A stretch of 64,000 bases of DNA from Heterobasidion occidentale (taxonomy: Eukaryota > Basidiomycota > Agaricomycetes > Russulales > Bondarzewiaceae), in contig JBCAQO010000006.1 in NCBI GenBank assembly GCA_039111635.1, positions 2,666,001 through 2,730,000 on the forward strand. Direction: 5' to 3'. Below the pieces are notes generated by a model, which was given only the letters and a program-made list of their open reading frames with translations, had not been told where the DNA came from and did not search any database. This document shows positions 17,625 through 34,844 of the stretch, in pieces (within the stretch, counting starts at the first letter, position 1; the number at the start of each line of letters is the position of its first letter). The position numbers and the translations under genes were made by a program.

Positions 17625-20460
17625 ATGACCTCTCAATCAAAGCACCATCAGCGAAAGGCGAGCACTGTGAAAGTCAGGACATTGGAGCTATCAGAAGTAG
17701 ATGTGCCCCAACCTACTCAGAGTCGTCTTACTCGATACCCTGCAGCACCGGATCATCCAGAACTAACTGCCTCACAACCTCGTCGCACTAGCAGTCGTGT
17801 TATCCAATATGGTGCCGACAGTACTCCTGTTCCTCCCGTAAAGCGACCAAGGGTTGACGACGGTCCTGGTCGGATGCTATTGCCTTGACAACGACACAAG
17901 CTGATGTCGTTCCACGTGTACTGACGCAGACGTCTTCTGACCCTATGGTCACAGACCTCGGACATGATGATTTGTTACTTGCTGAGAGCTACGGTGTAGA
18001 CGTTGTGGCATTCGATGCCATGTCTGTGGATGCCGACAGTGTCGTAGCCGATGATGTGGCTGGCCTACTGGCATGCACTTACTTAAGGTTGGGGTATCTT
18101 TTTCGCCTCGACACATATGCTTTCGTGTTACAAGATTGGGATAGTGTGAGGACGAGTCTCTGAAGGCAACGTGGTGTCTTCGTGGCTTGCTACTATGTTG
18201 GCTACTAACCACGAGCATTTGCAGATTGGCTCATACTATCATCTTCTCCGCTTGCCTCGAGGCCCTGCGCAGTATGGCATAGCATGCAACTGTCCACGAT
18301 GGAAGGCGCATCACAGTTGCATCCATCACCGTGTTGTGAACACATTCTCGCGGGAGCTCGTTATGTTTCATTCCATTGCATCCTCTCCCCTCCCATTGGC
18401 TGTGTTGGTTGATTGCACGCCTTTCAACGACATGTACATCTTCTCATGCTCTTCGTCTCTGGGTCGTTATGAGTCGGGCAAGCGAGTCCTCGTCACAATG
18501 CATCGTGATGGCAGATGGCACTGTCAGTCTTGCCGATATTCTGACAACTGTAAGCATAAGCCACATGCCATTGAGTTTGCTATCGAGGCCAAAATGTTAT
18601 CTGGGTCAGACCAGTCCCTGCCTCGCGATAAACATCTCGGAAGTGAAGCTTCCGATAAAGAAAATATGTTGCTCATGAAAGCTGGTGGTCGAGACGATGG
18701 CTTGGGTCTACAAGGGTGCATTTCGCATACATCTATCCCTCCGCCACGCTGGTGCTCGTTGCCTCATGAAGCTTCACTCTACGCTCCTCGTCTCAGTACC
18801 GATAGCTTGCATTTTGTTCTAGGAGTTGCGCCTCGGTGCTGCTGTGGCTTTGAACCACAGACCAATGGAGGATTTATCTCGCAGTCTGCTACAGTCTTCG
18901 GCTTTACAAACAAATATGAAGCAACCATTGATGTGCTGCCATGCCCAGTCTGCTGTCATTGGCGACGCCTCGTCGGTCCAGACTTAGGAAATATTGGTAT
19001 ATTCAACTGGAATAACTTGCACTTGTTCACACATGAATTGTTCAATGCATTCACTAGTGCCTTCACAACCTCCGAGACTCCATTCTCAGCTTTCTGTGCA
19101 ACAGTTCGGCATAGCTACGAAGAGCACTCTCTCGGAAACAAATTTTGCTCTGATGAAACCTTTGTTCGGGCCTGGTTTGCATTTGTACGGCTTCAAAAAC
19201 TAGACAGCGGAATGGCTTGTCCAACCTGTGGACCAAATCCAAGCGTCGTGATTGCAGATGGAGTCAGTCTTGGCACACATAGCTCAAAATTGACCGCTGT
19301 GGTGAAACCACCGACATACACTGACCAGTCGAGTGAAGTGATTGATTCAATCTCTACATACAAGGCTCGTCAATTGCCGGCCATCATCGAGGCTGATATT
19401 CGAGGAGGTGTCAATAAATTTCTCGATGCTACTGCTACTACTCTACCTGGTACCGAGCTCCATTATCCGGACTGGGCCAAGCTTTGTGCGAAGTATTCAG
19501 ACCTTGCAAACTTCATCATTCTCTCGCATAATAGAGCATTGAGTGCTCGAGTTCAGAAGGCATACCGAAGTCTTCTTCGTCAGATTGCTGCACCAGATAT
19601 TGTTCTACAGCTGGTACCATATGCGGCCATTGAACCTCTCGAAAACTTTGCTTTAACAGGTATAGCTGCAAGTTGGCTACAATCACTTTGTCCGGCTTTT
19701 GGTGTCGTTATAAATGCTCATGTCGAGGAGACAACCCAGATGCCATTACAAGTATTATATGTTGCCAAATGGCTGGCCTCTCGGGCATCCGAGGTCTATA
19801 ACCGCTTAGCACAACATGACCCCAGTCCCCCGGTTTTACTTCAAGAAGATAACTGGAATGAGACAGGAACATGCTACGGGCTTTCTCCAATCCGAACACG
19901 CAGAGTCTATAGCAAACTTCAGTATGACCATAAACCACATGATCTTGATGTCGACGAGATGGGTGACTGCAAGAAGTTCTACAAGACCTATTCACGAAAT
20001 AACCTTACTGGCGGAATACTGGTGCTTTGGTGCACACACTCTATTTGTCTTGGCTTTCATTCAATTCCTACTGCGGAGGGTCGGAACGACGTGTTCTCCG
20101 CCATATATACTCATTTCCCACAAGCTCCGAAAATCATTGTATATGATTTTGCTTGTCAACTCGCACCCTACTGCTTTGTGCGAGAAGCACGATATTTTCG
20201 TGACACTCGATTTCTTATTGATGAGATGCATGCGCACGATCATACGCTGTGGTCAAGCCTGCTTTGCAAGTAACCTAATGCAGTTCGACGAGAGGATACG
20301 GTCAATAAATACAAGTGCTGCAGAGTGTGGAAACAAGGGTGTCAACCGTATTCGAAAGACTGTGAGCTTTATGACTTACGAGCATGCAGTTGTGTTTACC
20401 AAGGCCTACATGGATGTATGGAATCGAGCTGTTATCAGACGGATTATGGACAAGATATGA
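17625..20460 (+). pseudogene. KDZ transposase with cysteine-cluster domain, frame-broken near 20241
   Basis: The first exon from ATG 17625 is a basic leader (MTSQSKHHQRKASTVKVRT). The spliced model joins about 17922-18145 and 18225 onward. A zinc-coordinating region follows (CNCPRWKAHHSC, WHCQSCRYSDNCKHKPH), then CPTCGPNPSVVIADG, a CxC5/CxC6-like signature accompanying fungal KDZ transposases. The catalytic core includes MGDCKKFY, LVLWCTHSICLGFH, IIVYDFACQLAPY and DEMHAHDHT. After HDHT the expected CGQACFASNLMQFDE continues only in another frame (20241-20247), with two bases too few or one too many. The final block SAAECGNKGVNRIRK to the stop at 20460 is intact. A 3' intron cannot explain the break because no GT-AG pair fits. 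Confidence 0.85.
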
Positions 20461-22565: not shown

Positions 22566-24469
22566 AGTGCATTGTGGGACCGCCGCTGCGCCTGCTGTAA
22601 GATCAGACCCCGGCGTCCGTCCGCAGTTAGGCGTCCATGAAATCACGCTTCCGAGACGCACAGCGCGCACCGGCCGCGCGCCGCGTTTCTGCGTCGAAGC
22701 GTCCGCATCCGTACATCCTTCCGTCCATGCATCCATGCATGCATCTATTCATTAGAGAGAGCATCTGATCTAGAGCGGGTTCGAAGCGTCTGTGGCGGGC
22801 GATCCTCCATCGATAGGCTCGCCTCGGGGACGGACGGCGACGCGGGCCCTTCGGGGCCTCCGGAAGGCTCGTGCGCGCCTCCTGCATGCATGCATGCGCG
22901 TGCCGCTCGCCGCTGCTATCGCTATCATATGCATCGTCTCGTTGTCTCGTTGTCTCGCTGTCTCACTATCACCGTGTCAGCTGTAGCAGCGCCGTAGCTG
23001 TATTGGCTGCTGTTGGCACTAGTTGGCACTCTGTTGGCACTCTGTTGGCTGCCGCTCCGGATGGGACGGGGTCGCGATCGATCCGCCGATCCGGGCGCCC
23101 TGCGATCGCACCGATATAGTCAGGGCTGCAGCTGCGGGAGCTGTTCCTGTGGCTCTGCGTGCGTGCGTGCGTGCGTGCGCGAACTTGCGAGAGGCGTGGG
23201 CATCGTCTGTGAGAAGGGAGGGAAGGGACGGGAAGAGAACGTTCCGCGTCGAAGAAGGGAAACGTTCGATGAAGGGGTGGGTAGAACCTGGTAGGACCAC
23301 GCGGTGGGGGCCAGGAGAACAGGGGTGCGACGCGAGGCCGAGGAGTGCCCAAGGGCGCCGGGATCGCCAGCGACTCCGCAGGACGAGAGAGGGCGCGTGT
23401 ACATGCCCACTGCTCCGATGGCACCTGGAATAACGGTTCGTGAGAGACGAGGGTGGATCCACCCGCTCGCTCGCCGACGGGGTTTAGCGCAGTTCGATAT
23501 GAATGAATGAATGAAGGGGTGCGGGGTACAGCAGTCTGCTAGGGATCTGCAGACGAAGTGGAGAAGGCCCCGAAGAGGATTAGGCCGTGCCGTGCCGTGC
23601 TTGCGATCGGAGGCTCCGAGCACAGATGCACAGTTAACGGTTGCGCGCGGGCGCGCGTCCGGCGTCCTTGTCTCGGCCGGGCACTGGCAGCGAGGCCCAA
23701 CGTCGTACGCGTCCAGAGCTTCGGATCGGACGAGCCGCGAGAGGCACAAGGGCGGCGCGCACATTCATAGCGCGGAGGTGGACGACTGGCCCGCGGGAAC
23801 GAGCGGACGTCGGTGTCGGTGTCGGTGTCGGGCGTTCTGCCACTGGGGCATGACGTCAGACTCGCTCGTTTATCCCGAAACGGCAATCGACCTGCCTGCT
23901 TCTGCTTCTGACCCTTCTGACCTCCGACGCGAGCCCGCTCGTCCGCTGCGACATCGTCCAAGCGAGATCGGCGGCGTGAGTAAGTGCGAGCAGTTGGCAT
24001 GCGAATCACCTTCCGACGGCACAAGCTCAAGCCAGAAGCCGGTCGACGGATGATGGCTGATGGCTGATAGACGGTGAGTGTCGTTCGGCGGGAGAAACGT
24101 CGGGCGAAGAGCTACTTACCGTAGGCGGCTCCATTCATCGACCCCGCGCGAGCAGAGCGCCGCCTCTGTAATGTATGTTGGAACCTGCCTCGCTTGGCAA
24201 CGTACGTACCCCGCGCCTTGCAGCTTGACGCCCAAATGCCAGTCTTCTCACTTGGATGTCGCGTGGGGATACGGACGCGCACATCCGTCCGCGCTCCGCC
24301 TACCCGCCCGCCCGCGCGGTCGGCGTCCTGCCCACGGCTGCCCGGCGTGACTGCCGCGAGCAGGCGGGGGACAGGCGAAGGCAGGCGGGTTCCGTAGGCA
24401 ATGGAAGCCCGCGCGGCTTCGCGCACTAACGCTAGCCACGCCCGCTAGCCAGCCACGCCGAGCGGCACA
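22566..24469. other. GC-rich interval without a recognised gene
   Basis: Many overlapping ORFs on both strands reflect high GC rather than coding. There are short simple repeats (GTGC)n at about 23157-23180, ATGC-type at 22725-22745, and TGTTGGCACTC repeats near 23010-23050. No motif of a known family was found in any frame. Confidence 0.55.
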
Positions 24470-25198
24470 TAAGACCCCGCCCGCTCTCCACCCCGCTCTC
24501 TCCTCTTCTCTCTTCTCCTCTCCTCTCCTCTACCCCACTCTCCTCTCCCCGCTCCAGCCTTCCTTCCCACGCCCTACCCCGCACCCGGCCCCGCGAGCCC
24601 CCAAGCCCGTGCGACCCCCCTCCCGCAGGCGCAACCCCGGCGAAACCTCGACGCCCAGGTTTCCCCATCCGCGCACACATCGCCCGCACCGCGGCGCCCC
24701 CTGCCCTGCCCTGCCCTCGTCCCCAGCCTCCCTCGCCCAAACGCTCCTTGTCCACACGCTCCCTGTCCACGCGCTCGCCCACGCCCACGCTCGTTGCCTC
24801 GTCTGCTCTGCGCCCGCGATCGCAAGCGGCGCCCGTCTGCCCTTCCTTCCAACCTTCCTGTGCCCTGCTGTGTGCCGCGAGCTTCGCCTTCGACGCGCGA
24901 TAGACATCGGAGACACACGCTCCTCCTGACTGGCTCTCTGGCCGCCTGACCGCCACACAGGAAGCCCCAGGCTACTTAACCTCCCAAGTTTCTCCTCCCC
25001 GTCCTTCTGCCCTCTGCCCTCTGCCCTCTGCCCTCCTTCCCCTTCCCCTTCGACCTTCCCCTCGACCTTCCCCTTCGACCTTCCCCTCCACCTTCTTATT
25101 TCCTCTCTTCCCCTTCGACCCTTCCGCCCTCGACCCTTCGACCTCACCCTTGACCTTCGACCCTGCCCCACCTCCCCGCACCGATCGATCACCCCAAG
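24470..25198 (+). promoter_or_regulatory. Long C+T-rich tract upstream of the sugar transporter
   Basis: About 700 bp strongly biased to pyrimidines on the plus strand, with TCTCC and CCTTCGACC repeats and a CTGCCCT tandem at about 25006-25034, running up to the transporter ATG at 25199. Pyrimidine-rich leaders are common before highly expressed fungal genes. A promoter/5' UTR role is inferred from position. Confidence 0.45.
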
Positions 25199-28100
25199 AT
25201 GGGTGCCGCCCCCGCCCTCGCCCCCGCAGCCGCGGGCTCGCAGACCTACGCGGGCCTCGTCGACCCGTCCGCCGCGCCGTGGTGGAAGAACCGCCGTGCG
25301 TGCTCCGCTTCGTTCTCTCTCCCCTCTCCCCTCTTCCCTGCTCTCTGCTTCCTGTTCCACCTCGTCGCTCGATTGTGAGTTTGACTGGCTGACACGTCGC
25401 GTAAACGTAACCGCGAACGGACTCGCGAACGGGAATGCAGGATTGCTAGCGCTGAACGGGTGGATCGCGCTCCTGTCAGTCCTCTTTCCTCTTCCTCCGC
25501 GTGCCCTCCCCCCCTCCCCCATCATCAGAGAACCTGAGCGCTGACGCGCGCACACGGACAGGCTGATCACATCCACCACGAACGGATACGACGGTGAGCC
25601 GCGCCCGTCCTCTGTTCCTCTTCGTGTTCGCTCTTGCAGCTGATTGCGGTGCCGAATGGTCGTGCTTGCGCCCGTCGCTCTCCCCTTCGCTGTCGTTCTG
25701 GCGGATGCCGTTGTCGTTGTCGTCGGGATGGGCAGGGAGCATGATGAGTGCGTACGCCCCCGCTGCATTGTCGCGCGCACCCGCACGGCTAACCGCTCGT
25801 CCGGCCGCCGGTGCCCCCGTTCGCCTGGGTGCATAGACGGCCTGCAGTCCCTCACGCAGTGGGAAGACGACTTCGACAACCCCTCAGGCGGCATGGTGAG
25901 TCTTCACGCCTACGTTCACGTCCACGCAGACCCGTTCTCTAAACCATGCGCGATTCCTCCCTGTCTCCCTCCTTCCTAATTGACATCGCCCTCTGCAGCT
26001 CGGCCTCCTCAACGCCATCCAGGTACGCCCCGCCCTCCCTTACCCTCCCTCACGCCAGCTCACCCCCACCCCTCTCGACGCCGCGCGCCAGAACATCGGC
26101 TCGCTCTGCGCGTACCCCTTCGCGCCGTACGTCACTGACGGCCTCGGCCGGCGCCCCGCCATCCTCCTCGGCGCGTCCCTCATGCTCGTCGCGACCGCGC
26201 TCCAGAGCGCCGCGCACTCCGTGCACATGTTCATCGGCGCGCGGTGCGTTCCCTCCCTCCCTCCCCTTGCTTCCCTGTCTTTCCTGTCTTTCCTCGGCCT
26301 TCCCTCGGGTTCGTTTCCTCGTGTTCCCTGTGCGACCCTCGCGGTTGATCGTGCCTTGTGCTCCCGTCCCTTGCGACGATGCACACGCGCCGCGCCCCGT
26401 GGGCGCCGCGGCCGCGAGGCTGGGCGGAGCGAGACGAGACGCGGCGGAGCCCCTGTCGCGCTTCCTTTGCGATACTTGACGGCACGGACGCTGACGCTGC
26501 CACCCCCCCACCCCCCCCCCCCCCCGGCCGCCATCCCCCGCCATCCCCGCGCCCGCGCGCGCGATGCTCTAGGTTCCTGATCGGCTTCGGGCTCACGTTC
26601 GCGGCGTCCGCGGCGCCGCTGCTCGTGACGGAGATCGCGCATCCGTCGCAGCGCGGGCAGGCGACGTCGCTGTATAACTCGCTGTGGTCAGTCCGAGCTC
26701 CCTGCTTGCCTTTTCTCGTTCCTTCCTGCACCGATAGAGCGCGCTGACGGATGACCGAACGGTGGTGGTGGTGGTGGTGGTGATGGTGCGTGGGTGATAG
26801 GTTTTTGGGGAGTATCATGTGCGTCGCTGGATTTTCGCAGCCGTGCTGTGTCTTCCTGATTGGATTTATGTTTCGATTCGCGCACGCACAGAGCGGCGTG
26901 GACGGTGAGCGCCGCGCCGCTGTTGCGTTTCGTCTCCGCTGACACTGCTGATCCTGACGCCGACGCCGACGCCGACGCTCGCGCGCGCGCGCACAGACCT
27001 TCGGCACGTTCACGATCCAGAGCAGCTGGGCGTGGCGCATCCCGTCGATCCTGCAGGGCCTGCCGTCGGCGGTGCAGGTCGGCCTCATCTGGTTCTGCCC
27101 CGAGTCGCCGCGGTGGCTCGTGAGCAAAGGACGGTCAGCCCACGCGCGTTTTCTGCGTCTCGCTTTGCGTATGGCTGATTTTGTTTTGTCTTCTTGCTTC
27201 TCGTGGCCGTGCAGGGAGGCGCAGGCGCTCAAGACCCTCGCGTACTACCACGCCAACGGCAACGCGTACGCGCTCTCGTCCTCTGTCATCATTGATTCAT
27301 CCCGCGGTGCTGACGCGCTCCTGTGCCGCCGCCGGCGACAGGCAGGACCCGCTCGTGGAGTACGAGTTCGAGGAGATCAAGGCGGCGATCAAGCTCGACC
27401 GCGAGGTCGCGGCCGACGTCGGGTGGCTGAGCCTCGTCCGGACGCCGGGGAACAGGAGGCGCATGCGGATCATCATCGCGATCGCCTTCTTCTCGCAGTG
27501 GTCGGGCAACGGACTGGTGTGAGTGCGCGCGCGTCGTCGTTTGGGGTGCGTGAGGCTCACATGTGTGCGTGCGCGCGTTGCAGGTCGTATTGTGCGTTTT
27601 TCTCGGTGGGTTGAGGAGGGGGAGGGCGCTCATGGCGTGTGCTGCTTTGATAGATCTCAAGCGGGTCTGCGATTCGGTCGGCAGTGCGTTCTTCTTCTCC
27701 CGTCTGCCCTCCTCACGCGGCTCACGCTCCTCGTGATATGCAGTCACCGACCCGACGATGCAGCTTCTCATCGTGCGTCCCCATATTGTTCCCCGTGGCG
27801 TCCCAGTCGTCCTCAGATCGCCCCGCTGTGACGGGATCGTAGAACGGCGTGCTCAACATCTGGAACTTCTTCGTCGCCGTGGCCGCTGGCCTGCTCTGTG
27901 ACAGGGTCGGCCGGCGGCGGCTGTTCATCACCTCCACCGTCGGTGCGTGCTCCGCCGTGCCCCGTCTTCGCGCGCGCGCTGACTCCGCGCCGTGCCGCGC
28001 CGCGCGCAGGGATGCTGGTATTCTGGATCATCCAGACCATCTGCTTCGCGGAGTACTCGAAGCACGGGAACCCGGCGACCGGCCGCACTGTCATCGCGAT

Positions 28101-29142
28101 GATCTGTACGTCCCCCGTCTCGTCCTCGATGCGCCTCTGGTCCCGTGCGCACGCTGACCGGCGCCTTCTTTTTGCGGTCCGCGCAGTCGTGTATTACGCC
28201 TTCTGTGCGTTCCTGTCTTTTTCTTCTCGCGCGTCCGAGTGAGTGGCTGTTGTGCTGACTGGGTGGGGCGTCGGACGACCGAGGGACAAAGACGACGTGA
28301 GTCTTTCTTGGGGATGTCGTGTGGTGTTCGTGGAGTGACTGCTTGGATCGTGACAGATTGCGTTCACCCCACTCATCGTGTCGTGAGTGGCCCGTCCGTT
28401 CGTCTGCGCGCGAGCGTGCTCACGTTCCGCACCTCAGGTACTCCGTTGAGATCCTGCCGTTCGCCATCCGCGCGAAGGGCTTCACCGTGTTCAGCTTCGC
28501 CGTCTCGCTGTCCCTGATCTTCAACCAGTGCGTCGACGCGCTCCGCCCGCCTTTTTCCTGCCCTGCGCTGACCGCGTGACATGCTTGTGCACAGATACGT
28601 GAATCCCATCGCGCTCAACGCGTCAGTCCCTCCCATCCTTCTCATTTCCGCACCAGACTGATTGCTCGTCCACTGCAGCCTCGGATGGAAATACTACGTG
28701 AGTCGTGCGGTGGCCGGGTGGGGCCGAGACCCCGTGCGCTGACCGCAGCCGCAGCTGGTCTACGCCTGCTGGCTCGCCTTCGAGGCTGTATTCGTTTTCG
28801 TCTACATTATCGAAACCAAGAACGTGCGTCGCACAGTCCCTCTTCCACCCTCTCCCGCGATGACCCGCCGCTGACTTGCGCGCGCACTCCGCCAGCGCAC
28901 GCTGGAAGAAACAGCCGCGTACGTCTTTTGACGCTTCTTGCTTCTTTGTGGCGCACTGATCTGACGACCTGACGGCCGCGTCCCACAGGCTGTTCGACGG
29001 CGCGGACACCGTCGCGCAGATAGAGCAGCGAGCCGCCGAGCACGCGGGCACGAGCACGAGCTCCGAGCACGACGGCCAGGATCCGGAGAAGCGCGGCGGG
29101 AGCGTGGAGAAGGCGGAGGTCGAAACGGGGAGCACGAGCTGA
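25199..29142 (+). CDS. MFS sugar transporter (SP family) in 27 exons with 5 nt and 8 nt micro-exons
   Basis: 537 aa, all 26 junctions in phase. Exons: 25199-25295, 25441-25474, 25562-25593, 25736-25747, 25837-25895, 25999-26022, 26092-26243, 26573-26686, 26801-26818, 26892-26904, 26997-27133, 27215-27265, 27342-27518, 27584-27591, 27654-27683, 27744-27772, 27843-27942, 28010-28105, 28187-28204, 28292-28296, 28357-28382, 28438-28527, 28595-28621, 28679-28697, 28755-28823, 28896-28918, 28989-29142. It has the hallmark motifs of proton-coupled plasma-membrane sugar porters: TNGYDGSMMNGLQSL, DGLGRRPAILLG, PESPRWLVSKGR, DRVGRRRLFITS, VEILPFAIRAKG and ETKNRTLEE. The sequence style is that of lactose-permease/hexose-type fungal transporters; the exact sugar is unknown. 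The C-terminal tail is charged and cytoplasmic (EHAGTSTSSEHDGQDPEK). Confidence 0.92.
26502..26525. repeat. C-homopolymer tract in a transporter intron
   Basis: Seven C, one A, then fifteen C, in the intron between exons 7 and 8 of the transporter. A (GGT)n microsatellite lies at 26760-26782 in the next intron. Both are prone to sequencing and replication slippage but do not touch coding sequence. Confidence 0.9.
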
Positions 29143-29614
29143 GGGCGCCGGCGGTAGACGGCTTGGGACGTCGTGCGACGTCGTCGTGCCTGGGGATATT
29201 GGTGTTGGTGTCCCCTTGGATGGGCAACTAATTTTGGCTTCTGCGTGCATGGTTCTTTCTCTCAAGCTCAAGTCCCTTCATCATTGTGTATTAAATATTC
29301 AACGTGCGATGGTGATCTACATATATCTGCGGACTTGAGGACTCTGGCGATTGCAGAGATGATTTTTAGGACTTTGCCTGCACTTGCTGGTATTTAAAAA
29401 AATGAAGCAAGTTCCAGGGTGCCAACCAGCTCCACAACGATGGCGTGGGGAAATTGAAATGGCCTGCTGCTGCTCAGCGCCTCCGACTTAGACCCGACTT
29501 CGTATTCGCCTTGAGCTGGCCTTCCACATACCCAGACACATCCCAGGACGCACATCCTAGACGCCTCGACGCAGAGCAGAAGCGCATCTGATACCCCACA
29601 AAGAGCCGGCAGAG
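29143..29614. other. Intergenic, transporter 3' flank to PC-esterase 2
   Basis: The AT-richer section near 29270-29420 likely includes the transporter 3' UTR. No ORF of interest is seen. Confidence 0.55.
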
Positions 29615-31166
29615 ATGGGCGTCCAACCGCGCGGGCTCGTCGTCAAACTGACAGCCATCGGCGCCCTGCTCTCCTTCATCACCCTCCTTTACTTCTACAC
29701 CGGTGCGTCCCAACGCGTCCGACTGCCCTCCCTCGGATCCCTCTTCCCCTCCGACGGCCGCGCGCGCGCGTTCTGCGCCCCCGAGGCGTGGGCCGACGGC
29801 CACTGGGCGCGGCAGCGTCCACCGGGCGGCAACGAGACGCTGACGGCGCCCCGCGACGTGTTCGCGTACAACGGCTTCGAGGGATGCGCGAGCGACCGCG
29901 AGTTCTTCTGGCATCTCGGCGCGGACAAGGAGGAGCAGTGGGACCGCTTCCCGGACGTGGTGGACTATGAGTGGGTGCCCGGCGAGCAGTGCGCGGGCGT
30001 CCGGCCGCTGACGGGGGACGCGCTCGTGCGGGATCTCGTTGAGCAGGGCGGGTGGCTCGTCCTTGGAGGTGCGTGCGCTGTGCCTTCGCGCCTGTCCGTG
30101 CGCTTGCTCAGCCGTCGCCTGCAGACTCCATCACGGAGAACCACTTTTTCTCGCTCTCCTGCACCCTATTCCCGCACGTCCGCGCAACCCCCAACTACAC
30201 CGAAAACCCTTACTTCGACCGAGCGTGGCCGCAGAACCTCTACCTCAACCCGAGCTCCCCGCTCCTCCCGTCCCTGCGCCTCCCGCCCGGCTTCTCCATC
30301 GAAGAGACGCCGCTCATCACCTTCCGCCGCGTCGACCTGCTTCTCGAGCAGACCGAGATCGAATCCGTGCACCGCACGCTCCATCCAGAGATGTACGCCG
30401 ACGGGTCCGACTTTGCGCTCTTCAGCGACGAGAAGTTCTGGTCGCTGAGCCCGTCCGAGTACATGCCGATGTTCACCGCCCCGCTCCCGCGCGCGCGCTA
30501 CGCGACGCTCGTCGTCAGCACCGGCGGGCACTGGACGACGACGCTCCTCAGCGGGCTGCGCGACCCGAGCCGCGAGCACGACGGGTACGGGATCGAGCAC
30601 GTGCTCGAGCTCTTCGCGGCCGCGATGCGCCGCTGGGCGGAGGACGTGCAGCGCGCGATGGACGAGGACCGCCGCGTGCAGACGCGCAAGGCGCTCGCGG
30701 GCCTGGTCGGCGGCGGGGGCGGAGGCGGCGCGGCGGAGGGCGAGCGGCCGGTGACGCGCCAGGTCGTCGTGCGCGCGTACCTCCCCGGCCACGAAGACTG
30801 CCACAGCTTCCGCGCGCCGTGGGCCGAGCGGCAGCCGTTCAAGTGGAACTGGTACAACTGGGCGTGGATCGGCGACATGAACGCGCGGTTCCAGGTGCGC
30901 GGCGTCTTCTCCCGTGCGCGTTCTCGCGCTTGACTACGACGGGGTTGCTGACGGCGATTTCTGGGCGGGGGTAGGAGATCCTGGCGTCTGCGGCGTCGTA
31001 CCCCGATATCCACTTCCTCCCCATCGACCGCCCTGCGCTGCTCCGCCCGGACGCGCATGCAACGGGCGACTGCCTGCACCTGCTCACGGGCGCGGGCGTG
31101 CTCGAGGGGTGGACGCATTATATCTGGCACTTCGTCACGCGCCAACTCCCGGGGCGCATTCGGTGA
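29615..31166 (+). CDS. PC-esterase / Cas1-like type II membrane protein, copy 2
   Basis: Exons 29615-30068, 30125-30894 and 30975-31166 (471 aa), with intron positions matching copy 1 at 237-1910. An N-terminal hydrophobic anchor (residues about 11-27) precedes the shared block FEGCASDREFFWHLGAD. GDSITENHFFSL contains the GDS motif, again split by intron 1, and the C-terminus carries RPDAHATGDCLH, the DxxH box. The two proteins align along their length; copy 2 adds a Gly-rich insert ([14 protein letters not shown]) before the RQVVVRAYLPGHEDCH block. It is much richer in GC than copy 1. Same inferred role: acyl transfer to or from a cell-wall or Golgi glycan, substrate unknown. Confidence 0.72.
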
Positions 31167-32099
31167 TCGCGTCGGACATCGCGGGGCGCGGTGTGCACAC
31201 ACCGGACAAAAGTGCGTCGGACGGACTGAGGTGCTCGCTGGGTGTATTTGATCTTGTTGCTTGTCGTCATACCATAGAGCTATGCACGGACGTCGTTTAT
31301 TGCTGCTAAATTTATATGTACACTGCAGGCTCCCGTGCGGCGGGTGGAACGCCGTCTTTCAGTCGGGCATAGATGCTAACGATCCGTGTAGGTCGGTGCA
31401 CTGTGATCTGCACAAGCATCGTCTTGACGAACATCACGATCCCAAACGGCGCCGCCAGTGGCTTTGTCGCTCCGCCAATATCCGCGCTCTCGCCTGTCAT
31501 GCTATTCGGCCTGGCCACTCAGACGACGTAGGCGGCCTGAGAAATATCTAACATTGTCACCCATGGCAACGAGCAAGCCTGACGTTCGATCGTATTTGTT
31601 ACGACGAAGATTCCACCGTCCATTTTTTACCCCCGAAGCAGGTACCACAATGCTCGTTTCGTCCTCACGGCGATAGGTCGTCCGAAGTCAAACCTGTCCA
31701 AAGCGGAGCTTACACGGATTGACAACTCGCAGACAGCCAAGAATTCAGTGCCCAACGAAAGGCGGATGCGATAGAATTACACGTTTCAAAAACCGATTGC
31801 GGACGTGGTAGTACACAGAAGCCATAGACAGTCCTAAGGATGAGCACGAGAGGAACGATCGCACCGACCCTGGCAGACGAAGACTTCAAAGGAAGGAGCG
31901 GATGGACAAGATCAGACGGGAAAAATACAAGGTGGGTTTTGAAATGGCTATCGGAGTCGACTTTTGGGAGGCAAGACACGAGAGAAGGCGAGACCTCTTG
32001 TCATGAATGCTGGACGACATCCCTGCTCAGCGTGTTCGATCAGTCCACCCGCAGGCAGTGGGTGCACCATGACTCGATCCTCGCTGTATCTGCCACTCC
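31167..32099. other. Interval without a supported gene
   Basis: Short minus-strand ORFs (31312-31518 and 31710-31979) contain hydrophobic stretches, but I could not splice them into a recognisable protein. It includes the 3' flanks of two convergent genes. Confidence 0.5.
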
Positions 32100-34564
32100 C
32101 TAATCCAGTAAGGCACTGTTGCGACGGACAGCGCGGTTGCGGTTGCGGTCAGAGTCGTTCCCGTCGCTGTCATGTCCACCTATAGGTGAAAAGAAGCTCG
32201 TGAGTGACAGAACAGATTATAGAGTCAGTGGTTACGAACTGTCATGACCGTGCCTTGGAGCCCTGCGAGCAAGACGGTCCCTGCTCCTGCTCCTATCATT
32301 GCCAGAGTCTATGGAATTTACGATGGACGTCAACCAAATGATACGATCAATATCTGGAGCTAATCACGAACCGTTGCCGCCGTGCCTCCTGCGAGTCAGA
32401 CGATCACGGCTCCTGTTCCTCTCAGAACCAGAGTCTGTTGAATCAAGGTTAGAGGTAGCACACAAATAAATTCAATGCAGTCACAACGAACCGTTGCCTC
32501 CATGTCTCCTGCGAGTAAGAACTATCCTCTCATCGCGGTCGGTATCGTGTCCCGAGTCTGATTACCTCGATGAGGGAAACACACATTGTCAAATGAATAT
32601 CCACAAACCGTTGCCACCGTGTCTCCTACGCGTTAGGCGGTTCCTGCTCCTGCTCCTTTCGCCTCCAGAATCTGCACGGCCAGAAGTATAAGATCAGGCG
32701 ATTCAAGCCAAGAAGCGATCGTAACATACCGTTACCGCCGTGTCTCCTGCGCGCATGGCGAGCAACTTCTCTGATCCTGTCATGGTCTGTATCATTACCC
32801 GAGTCTGCTCAACTCTGAATCAGCGCCCGTATATATCTCGACAAATGACCACGACAAACAAACCATTACCGCCATGTCTTCTGGGGGCAAGCACAGCCCT
32901 GTCATGGTCCGTGTCATTACCGGAGTCTTATTTTGAGTTGAGTTCGACATTCAATCATCAAGAAAGTGCTCGTAACGAACCGTTGCCACCGTGTCTCCTG
33001 CGAGCAAGGCGGTTTCTGCTCCTACTCCTTTCGCCACCAGAGTCTACAGGATTCAGGTGAGGAGTTGAATAGGCACAGTTTATCTAGAGCTTACCATTGC
33101 CGCCATGTCTCCTTCGGGTAAGAACAGCCCTGTCACGGTCGGTGTCATTTCCAGAGTCTAATCACCTCGAGTTGAAGTTCGACATTGAGAGATTAGGAAG
33201 CACTCATAACACACCGTTGCCACCGTGCCTTCTGCGGGCAAGAACAGCCCTGTCGTGATCCGTGTCATTGCCAGAATCTAACAACCTCAAGATGAGTTCG
33301 GTATTTGGATATAAAGGGGGTTCCGTAACAAACCGTTGCCGCCGTGTCTCCTGCGGGCAAGAACAGCTCTGTCGTGATCCGTGTCATTACCAGAGTCTGC
33401 AGTCCGAAGATTAGAACATAGCTTGACGCGACAGGTTCAATGCGTACCATTGCCGCCGTGTCGCCTGCGAGCGAGAACAGCCCTATCACGGTCCGTGTCG
33501 TTGCCGGAGTCTGCTCAAATCTATTTGAGCGACACTCCTGATGACTTGATGCTACGGATGCAACGAACCGTTACCGTCATGGCGTCTGCGATTGAGAACG
33601 GCCCTGTCACGATCCGTGTCATTACCAGAGTCTGCAGGCAGGTTCAGGAAACAAACAATTATAAAGAAGTCAGGGCGTACCATTCCCACCGTGGCGCCTG
33701 CGAGTGAGAACGGCCCTGTCATGGTCCGTATCGTTACCGGAGTCTATTTTCTTTGGACTGAGTTCGACATTCGAGTATCAGGAGGGTCTTGACGGACCGT
33801 TGCCTCCGTGTCTCCTGCGTGCCAGACGGTTCCTGCTTCTGCTCCTCTCATTACCGGAGTCTGCAAGGCTCATATTCAGCAAACGACTAGCTCGTACCAC
33901 ATTTCCAACGATGTGTCCTTACCGTCATGTCTTCTACGAGCAAGTACAGCCCTATCACGGTCTGTGTCGTTGCCGGAGTCTGCAAGGCCACTCATCAGTG
34001 AAGTGCGGAACAAATGACGGGGTTATTCGAGGCATACCATTACCGCCGTGCCTCCTACGAGCCAGGCGATCCCTACTCCCACTTCTGTTACCGTCTGGGA
34101 ACGCCGTTTCAGAAAAGTGCCCAGGGTCAAGACATTCACAACTGACCATGGCTACCATGTCTCCTGCGAGCGAGACCAGTCTTTATACCATCTCGTCCCC
34201 TTAAGTCATCATTGTCTGAATCATCATCATCTGCATGATTATGTTGAGCGAGATTCTGACAGAAACAAGGAGCTCGTCACTTGCCTTGATCTACGAGATT
34301 CCTAGCTGCAATCTCGCCTTGGAGACCTCTGATAGTATTGTCAATTTCGCGAGAACGAGGTGAGCGGGCTTCAATGATAACCTAACCTTTGTCTCCGAGC
34401 GCCGTGAGGGGAGCATGTCCGACGTCCACCGTCACGACATCGTTTCCGACAGCGTCAGACAAGGCAAGAGCGCGCTCCGGTGTGGGGCGAGCATTTACAT
34501 TTAAAAGCCTCAAGGAGACCCAGCAGGCGAGAGCGACGAAACGCGAAAAGCGGGTGAAGAACAT
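32100..34564 (-). CDS. Repeated-exon gene: secreted-type precursor with 17 charged ~21-aa repeats, each in its own phase-1 exon
   Basis: Read from 34564 down; 454 aa in 20 exons. Exon 1 (34387-34564) gives a possible signal peptide (hydrophobic FVALACWVSLRLL, then NVNA/RPTP). A small exon at 34285-34305 follows, then 17 repeat exons: 34147-34215, 34038-34094, 33923-33979, 33798-33860, 33681-33743, 33569-33631, 33448-33510, 33334-33396, 33215-33277, 33095-33157, 32981-33043, 32864-32926, 32730-32804, 32609-32671, 32492-32557, 32372-32434, 32240-32308, and a tail exon 32100-32179. Most repeat exons are exactly 63 nt, every intron is phase 1 and 49-81 nt long. The consensus is DSGNDTDRDRAVLA then RRRHGGNG. 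A second type reads DSGGERSRSRNRL before the same basic end. RRR suits Kex2 cleavage. No family recognised; exon 2, bounded by a GC-AG intron, is the least certain. Confidence 0.72.
32240..34215 (-). repeat. Tandem exon-plus-intron repeat array, 17 units of about 115 bp
   Basis: Each unit is a conserved 57-75 nt exon followed by a 49-63 nt intron. Exon copies differ mainly at third codon positions (GGT/GGC, AAT/AAC, GCT/GCC), while intron interiors are barely alignable. Each unit keeps an acceptor ending CAG/TAG/AAG before ACTC and a donor such as GTTCGT, GTTTGT or GTACGC after AACG or AATG. Confidence 0.85.
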
Positions 34565-34844
34565 GTTGATAAAGCTTGAACTAAGTGTAGCAAGTCGGGT
34601 GTTGCTAGGGATTGAGGATTTCGAAATGCACTTTTATATCTTGCAGCAATGGCGCGTCACAAAGTCCACAATGAAATCGCGATGCCTGTGGGATGCGCAG
34701 TCGATGAAAAAAAGCTCCTGTGGGATGTCCAAGAAATGGGAGATAAATTCAACGCGGCCAAGAGGAAGTCGTGAGATGTCATGGCATAGCTTCGACGACC
34801 ATGAAAAACAAGACTGCAAGCGGTTGATCTCGGCGTGAAGTTCT

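Follow-up and report, generated by a model that had tools for sequence, protein, structure and literature searches.

Anatomy of the repeat gene

We analyzed a window of 64,000 nucleotides from Heterobasidion occidentale, bases 2666001-2730000 of contig 6 in a genome of 45.05 Mb; positions within the array and its surroundings count from the first base of this window. On the minus strand, between an ATG at 34564 and a stop codon at 32100, lies a gene of 20 exons, 17 of which carry one unit each of a charged peptide repeat, and which probably encodes a KEX2-processed repeat protein (KEP). The original prediction had placed a minus-strand array of 17 repeat exons here, and its strand and both ends agree with our model, in which 1401 nt of exon give an open frame of 466 codons plus the stop. 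Its count of 20 exons without an in-frame stop also stands, whereas its total of 455 codons does not; it gave no exon boundaries.

Every intron is phase 1 and of the ordinary length that had been claimed (19 of 19, 49-63 nt). Eighteen are GT-AG introns, and intron 2 is GC-AG, with the context CAAG/GCAAGT (a slash marks a splice border). Exons 2-19 are symmetric, being phase 1-1 and each a multiple of 3 in length. The donor sites were set by aligning the units and by phase, which left some choice around exons 1, 2, 3 and 5. Exon 2 needs the GC-AG donor and is the least certain part of the model; leaving it out does not close the frame and shortens the protein by 14 residues. Upstream, a TATA-like box (GATATAAAAG) lies at 34631-34640 on the minus strand, its TATA starting 74 nt before the ATG, and the 75 nt preceding the start codon are free of any ATG.

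Exon 1 (34387-34564) holds the start codon, a hydrophobic N-terminus that is a probable signal peptide by hydropathy, and the first part of a leader, which continues in exon 2 (34285-34326, 42 nt; acceptor CAGAG/). Exons 3-19 then carry one unit per exon, with a dibasic module near the end of the unit. Eleven of these 17 are exactly 63 nt long, which bears out the description of the repeat exons as mostly of that length; the remaining six measure 57, 57, 66, 69, 75 and 84 nt. Exon 3 (34147-34230, 84 nt) contains an acidic stretch, DDDDSDNDD, and the first RRRH module, and its unit is atypical. Exon 20 (32100-32179) encodes the C-terminal tail with the last RR site and the stop codon.

The other 16 units fall into two types. 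Ten exons are of type A, with the motif DTD(R/H)DRAVL or a variant of it: exon 5 (33923-33979, 57 nt), whose donor lies two codons upstream relative to its sister exons; exons 7 (33681-33743), 8 (33569-33631), 9 (33448-33510), 10 (33334-33396), 11 (33215-33277), 12 (33095-33157) and 14 (32864-32926), all of 63 nt, the last with a PRRH module; and the variants exon 15 (32730-32804, 75 nt), which has an insertion, and exon 17 (32492-32557, 66 nt). Interspersed among them are six exons of type B, a basic, RSRS type with the sequence ERSRSRNR: exon 4 (34038-34094, 57 nt), which is type-B-like; exons 6 (33798-33860), 13 (32981-33043), 16 (32609-32671) and 18 (32372-32434), of 63 nt each; and the variant exon 19 (32240-32308, 69 nt), with an RRAPRH module.

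The consensus unit reads DSGNDTDRDRAVLARRRHGGN, and an intron splits the codon of its first aspartate (G/AC). The repeat end had been read as RRRHGGNG, but its last G is the first base of this split GAC codon, so that the unit runs ...RRRHGGN/DSGND.... Across exons 3-20 the modules comprise 15 RRRH, the PRRH of exon 14, the RRAPRH of exon 19 and an RRN in exon 20. A dibasic pair is thus kept in 17 of 17 exons from 3 to 19, altered modules included, as well as in exon 20, and the arginine codons of the modules vary among CGC, CGT, CGA, AGA and AGG. Together with this pair, the best-kept positions of the unit are DSG, R10, L13, H and GN.

Evidence for splicing and coding

The splice borders within the array depart from chance. 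The donor +5 position is G in 19 of 19 introns, whereas +3 and +4 vary, and a CTNA branch motif lies 6-40 nt upstream of the acceptor in 18 of 19 (mean of 500 shuffles 9.8, P 0.002), although the introns share ancestry and are not 19 independent trials. Retention of any single intron would break the product, because it introduces an in-frame stop (17 of 19) or shifts the frame (introns 4 and 15). We consider it well supported by the sequence that the array is a spliced, coding gene.

Exons 5-19 all begin with DSG and most finish with RRRHGGN, and for this reason most of the exons could be lost or skipped one at a time with frame and peptides intact. A latent GGTAA donor like that of exon 5 is also present in exons 4, 8, 14 and 15, making small in-frame alternative donors possible.

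Selection on the repeat units

The units had been called near-identical. This holds for the residues within a type, but not across the two unit types and not for the DNA: the eleven 63-nt exons differ from one another at 6-31 of 63 positions, none are identical, and the closest pair, exons 10 and 11, differs at 6. For tests of selection we used the seven 63-nt exons of type A (7-12 and 14; exons 5, 15 and 17 were excluded for length) and the four of type B (6, 13, 16 and 18; exons 4 and 19 excluded for length). By the Nei-Gojobori method, the 21 type-A pairs differ at a proportion of 0.67 of synonymous sites (pS) and 0.05 of nonsynonymous sites (pN), which gives a ratio of nonsynonymous to synonymous divergence (dN/dS) of 0.03. 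The ratio is 0.06 for type B (6 pairs), 0.22 between types A and B (28 pairs) and 0.12 over all 55 pairs. The values within types are far from 1 and bear out the proposal that the copies vary mostly at synonymous sites and that selection acts on the repeats.

The pattern is strongest in the coding frame. Type-A differences at codon positions 1, 2 and 3 number 24, 30 and 208. Of 232 differing codon pairs, 194 (84%) are synonymous; four other frames give a share of 3-5%, and the antisense frame with the same third positions gives 63%. Neutral simulation gives a mean synonymous share of 21%, with single pairs reaching at most 70%. Exon pairs are not independent. Lower-bound counts of changes, made without pairing, are 26 synonymous against 5 replacement for type A and 17 against 5 for type B, compared with a mean synonymous fraction of 0.24 and a maximum of 0.44 in 300 neutral star simulations.

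The copies are also old. The 11 exons differ by a mean of 0.54 at fourfold sites, of which the pairs listed have 6 to 10 each; the values range over 0.17-1.00, and random draws with matching composition give 0.64. Synonymous divergence is near saturation, not at saturation. Third-position changes in type A comprise 151 transitions and 31 transversions, partly because twofold sites allow only transitions. In gapped alignments exons 4-18 have a mean identity of 0.78, while introns 4-18 stand at 0.71 against 0.72 for shuffled introns. Ten of 105 intron pairs nevertheless exceed a z-score of 3, introns 6 and 13 foremost, which indicates that introns were copied along with their exons. Overall, the units are old duplicates under purifying selection, each constrained and not recently copied.

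Predicted peptides and their processing

Eighteen RR or RRR clusters delimit 17 cores of 16-25 amino acids each. Sixteen of the cores start with histidine, 13 of them with HGGNDSG, and are 16-22 amino acids long; ten of these carry a net charge of -2 to -3 and six of +1 to +2, histidine uncounted. The 17th core, from exons 19-20, starts with AP. An exon border falls inside each predicted peptide, mostly at HGGN/DSG.

Kyte-Doolittle hydropathy peaks at 1.79 for the best 11-residue window, residues 10-20, and does not exceed 0.41 for windows starting past residue 60. The hydrophobic N-terminus of the original prediction is therefore present, while its signal peptide is judged here by hydropathy and by eye. 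The genome contains at least one kexin gene, counted among the best-scoring genome candidates; its subtilase and P domains lie in neighboring frames on contig 2, with a hydrophobic stretch after them by eye. Coprinopsis cinerea has been described with three kexins (PMC9769878). KEPs have been defined by at least three tandem repeats of at least 8 amino acids between KR, KK, RK or RR sites, none longer than 100 amino acids (PMC7329392), and the 17 cores between 18 clusters match that description of repeats and sites.

Genomic surroundings

Of 274 stop-to-stop frames in the window with 90 or more amino acids, 145 were scanned together for Pfam domains and 70 of these also singly; genes with short exons were surely missed. 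Matches among the 145 frames include G-alpha (4.9-5.7 kb), NOG1 (9.0-9.7 kb), cytochrome P450, a sugar transporter, an M24 peptidase and UbiA. A plus-strand open frame of 707 amino acids at 18150-20270 has a CxC4 domain, which is associated with KDZ transposases, and its named relatives are Agaricomycete proteins, the first from Hypsizygus marmoreus at 61%. As a mobile-element gene it indicates the class and not the species. No frame that was scanned on its own between 34.8 and 54 kb matched Pfam, and Rfam and tRNA scans of the window gave no match; a bacterial promoter scan, a method unsuited to a fungus, was likewise without a match.

Further along the window are a major facilitator superfamily (MFS) match at 54.3-54.6 kb, two P450 frames at 56.5-57.6 kb, two UbiA prenyltransferase frames at 59.5-60.3 kb and a sub-cut-off AMP-binding match at 62.8-63.5 kb. 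This stretch (about 54.3-63.5 kb) resembles part of a gene cluster for a small molecule, perhaps a meroterpenoid; it lies at least 20 kb from the array, and nothing links it to the repeat gene. On its other side the array, at about 0.50 GC, adjoins a GC-rich block (0.62-0.67) at about 24000-32000. The block has minisatellites at 25.0-25.2 kb and a strong strand skew, with a GC skew of -0.27 at 24-26 kb and an AT skew of -0.32 at 26-28 kb.

Genome-wide, we found at least two loci of glycoside hydrolase family GH7 and at least 11 peroxidase-family matches, which make decay of plant matter possible. Two pairs of peroxidase-family matches are equal in score and length (contig 2 at 761506 with contig 23 at 41328; contig 14 at 1252429 with contig 14 at 1324550) and may be recent duplicates or haplotype copies that the assembly retained.

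Interpretation of the array

Taken together, the splicing, the conserved dibasic modules and the hydrophobic N-terminus make it probable, as judged from the sequence, that this is a functional spliced gene for a KEP. In such a model, the hydrophobic N-terminus would direct the precursor into the secretory pathway, the RRR modules would be cut by kexin in the late Golgi, and a KEX1-type carboxypeptidase would then trim the arginines, as in known KEP biology (PMC9769878). The result would be the release of 16 linear, histidine-initial peptides of 16-22 residues in two charge sets: ten acidic peptides, such as HGGNDSGNDTDRDRAVLA, with a net charge of -2 to -3, and six basic peptides, such as HGGNDSGGERSRSRNRLA, with +1 to +2. 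Products expected from cutting include HGGNDSGNDTDRDRAVL(A) and HGGNDSGGERSRSRNRL(A), with or without a trailing arginine. Transcription, secretion, cleavage and the identity of the peptides are all inferred at this point, and the extracellular role of the peptides is a guess: like known KEPs, they may interact with other organisms or with the surface of the cell. Basidiomycota have a mean of 5.30 KEPs per strain (PMC7329392). KEP-derived peptides have been detected in Agaricomycetes, and Pichia pastoris has served as the host for C. cinerea KEPs (PMC9769878).

Several points weigh against processing, secretion or function. The hydrophobic run is broken by an arginine, R19, and the call of a signal peptide depends on hydropathy and, by eye, a V-N-A context; exon 2 relies on a GC donor; and arginine-rich repeats of mixed charge are equally compatible with an uncut protein. 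The cores contain no dibasic pair where 5.4 are expected by shuffling, but the relatedness-corrected values are 0.89 (one A core) and 0.45 (one B core), so that this lack is not significant after allowing for relatedness and was dropped as evidence for kexin. Six KEP knockouts in C. cinerea were without apparent phenotype (PMC9769878), and function therefore cannot be inferred from membership of the class.

The outcome of the protein searches points the same way. Searches with the whole protein and with residues 1-160 of its first 309 returned no relative among the best 7975 and 7996 candidates scored by shared words, under length limits that excluded much shorter proteins; the same database does return Agaricomycete proteins, namely the relatives of the neighboring CxC4 frame. 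Nor did the whole protein match Pfam or NCBIfam, or 130 repeat residues the Protein Data Bank (PDB) by sequence, and no second locus in the genome was found with the repeat, the leader or exon-plus-intron DNA among the best candidates scored. For so old an array the lack of relatives in the protein searches is unexpected, and mis-annotation of relatives, the length limits or crowding of candidates by low-complexity proteins could explain it.

Comparison with described systems places the gene closest to KEPs. It shares with them, including the C. cinerea examples, a putative N-terminus for secretion, many short similar units and dibasic sites between these, with no need for a cluster of modifying enzymes; it appears to differ from KEPs as described, the basis of this comparison, in having one exon per unit and old, diverged introns. 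The KEP papers whose text was searched lack the word "exon" and have "intron" once, for cloning from cDNA, and searches of open-licence text found no fungal Kex2 precursor described as having a separate exon for each repeat. By description, the closest match found in unit length and hydrophilic character is Rsp1 of Ustilago maydis, with 11 hydrophilic, imperfect tandem repeats of 18 or 21 amino acids and putative Kex2 sites (PMC4617103), although it comes from a smut and not from an Agaricomycete.

Many short exons are also a feature of the micro-exon genes of schistosomes and the bicycle genes of aphids, which encode secreted proteins; these, however, are animal genes. Ascomycete alpha-pheromone precursors likewise hold tandem peptides cut by kexin. 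An alpha-pheromone reading was rejected, with the STE13 signature, an XA or XP that follows the dibasic site, found in 1 of 18 segments, the AP after the RR of exon 19; sixteen of the others begin with HG or HD, and the tail begins with NS.

The strongest alternative, which we judge unlikely though it deserves a hearing, is a hydrophilic repeat protein, secreted or host-directed, that works without being cut, as the SP7-like effectors of arbuscular mycorrhizal fungi or a cell-surface polyampholyte would. Its RRR modules would then be patches of charge or nuclear signals, and the mixed-charge stretches SRSR and DRDR would fit it. The SP7-like effectors of Rhizophagus, as far as their available descriptions go, also have hydrophilic, imperfect repeats behind a signal peptide; such repeats are present here, and the signal peptide by hydropathy only. 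They share an intron before the first repeat too, and SP7 has been reported in several transcript versions; that one conserved intron, however, compares with one per repeat here. These effectors act in host nuclei, belong to another lineage and are described as specific to Glomeromycotina (PMC11333574), whereas the neighboring mobile-element frame has Agaricomycete relatives, and our protein is without a Pfam match. Finally, the dibasic pair is among the best-kept positions, along with DSG, R10, L13, H and GN, as it would be for a cutting site.

It is improbable that the product is instead an intracellular, nuclear protein resembling those with arginine/serine (RS) domains, its hydrophobic N-terminus being no signal peptide. 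The RSRS runs of the type-B units recall RS domains and R19 breaks the hydrophobic run, but that run follows directly on the start and is by far the highest in the protein, and no RNA-binding or other Pfam domain accompanies it.

More remote still is the RiPP (ribosomally synthesized and post-translationally modified peptide) precursor that the original prediction had mentioned beside Kex2 processing. Its proposal of a Kex2-processed repeat precursor remains the best reading, with the dibasic pair in exons 3-20 and the kexin gene, but we rejected a RiPP of the dikaritin type, whose cores would be cyclised by UstYa proteins. The multi-core dibasic layout is common to both (PMC9769878, PMC7329392), and P450, UbiA prenyltransferase, MFS and sub-cut-off AMP-binding matches lie 20-31 kb from the array. 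There is, however, no tyrosine in the 466 amino acids and no UstYa/DUF3328 match on contig 6 among the 19 scored; the genome has at least 19, on contigs 2, 7, 10, 11 and 14, and none of 15 scanned frames at 36.1-46.3 kb matches Pfam, though short exons could be missed. Seven of the 19 scored UstYa/DUF3328 matches cluster on contig 14 (3 at 269.7-273.2 kb and 4 at 317.2-364.3 kb) and seven are on contig 7, and both are possible dikaritin-like loci. Least credible of all is a non-gene tandem repeat, either a satellite-like array or a pseudogene, to which Tandem Repeats Finder lends a 119-bp unit of 2.6 copies at 33093-33398 and against which stand the splice sites, the frame and the evidence of selection.

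Implications

Most likely, the gene encodes a KEP whose sequence type is new and whose exon-per-repeat build is unusual. A more speculative extension, which we put forward tentatively and think rather doubtful, is an intron-insulated precursor of two peptides. Diverged introns would largely have stopped unequal crossing-over and conversion, the copy number and the acidic-to-basic ratio would be fixed, each unit would be selected separately, and, as exons 2-19 are all symmetric, alternative splicing could retune dose and ratio with frame and peptides unbroken. The oppositely charged sets with their common HGGNDSG head might then cooperate, for instance through co-assembly or through metal binding at the N-terminal histidine.

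With synonymous sites near saturation while residues hold, a single genome shows which residues matter, namely DSG, R10, L13, the dibasic pair, H and GN. One genome thus suffices to identify the constrained residues of the putative peptides, which synthetic peptides could then probe. Elsewhere, repeats that are near-identical in DNA may reflect recent duplication and not selection. Moreover, the exon-per-unit layout provides a testable link between splicing and the mixture of peptides obtained from a precursor, and it may explain why annotation misses such genes.
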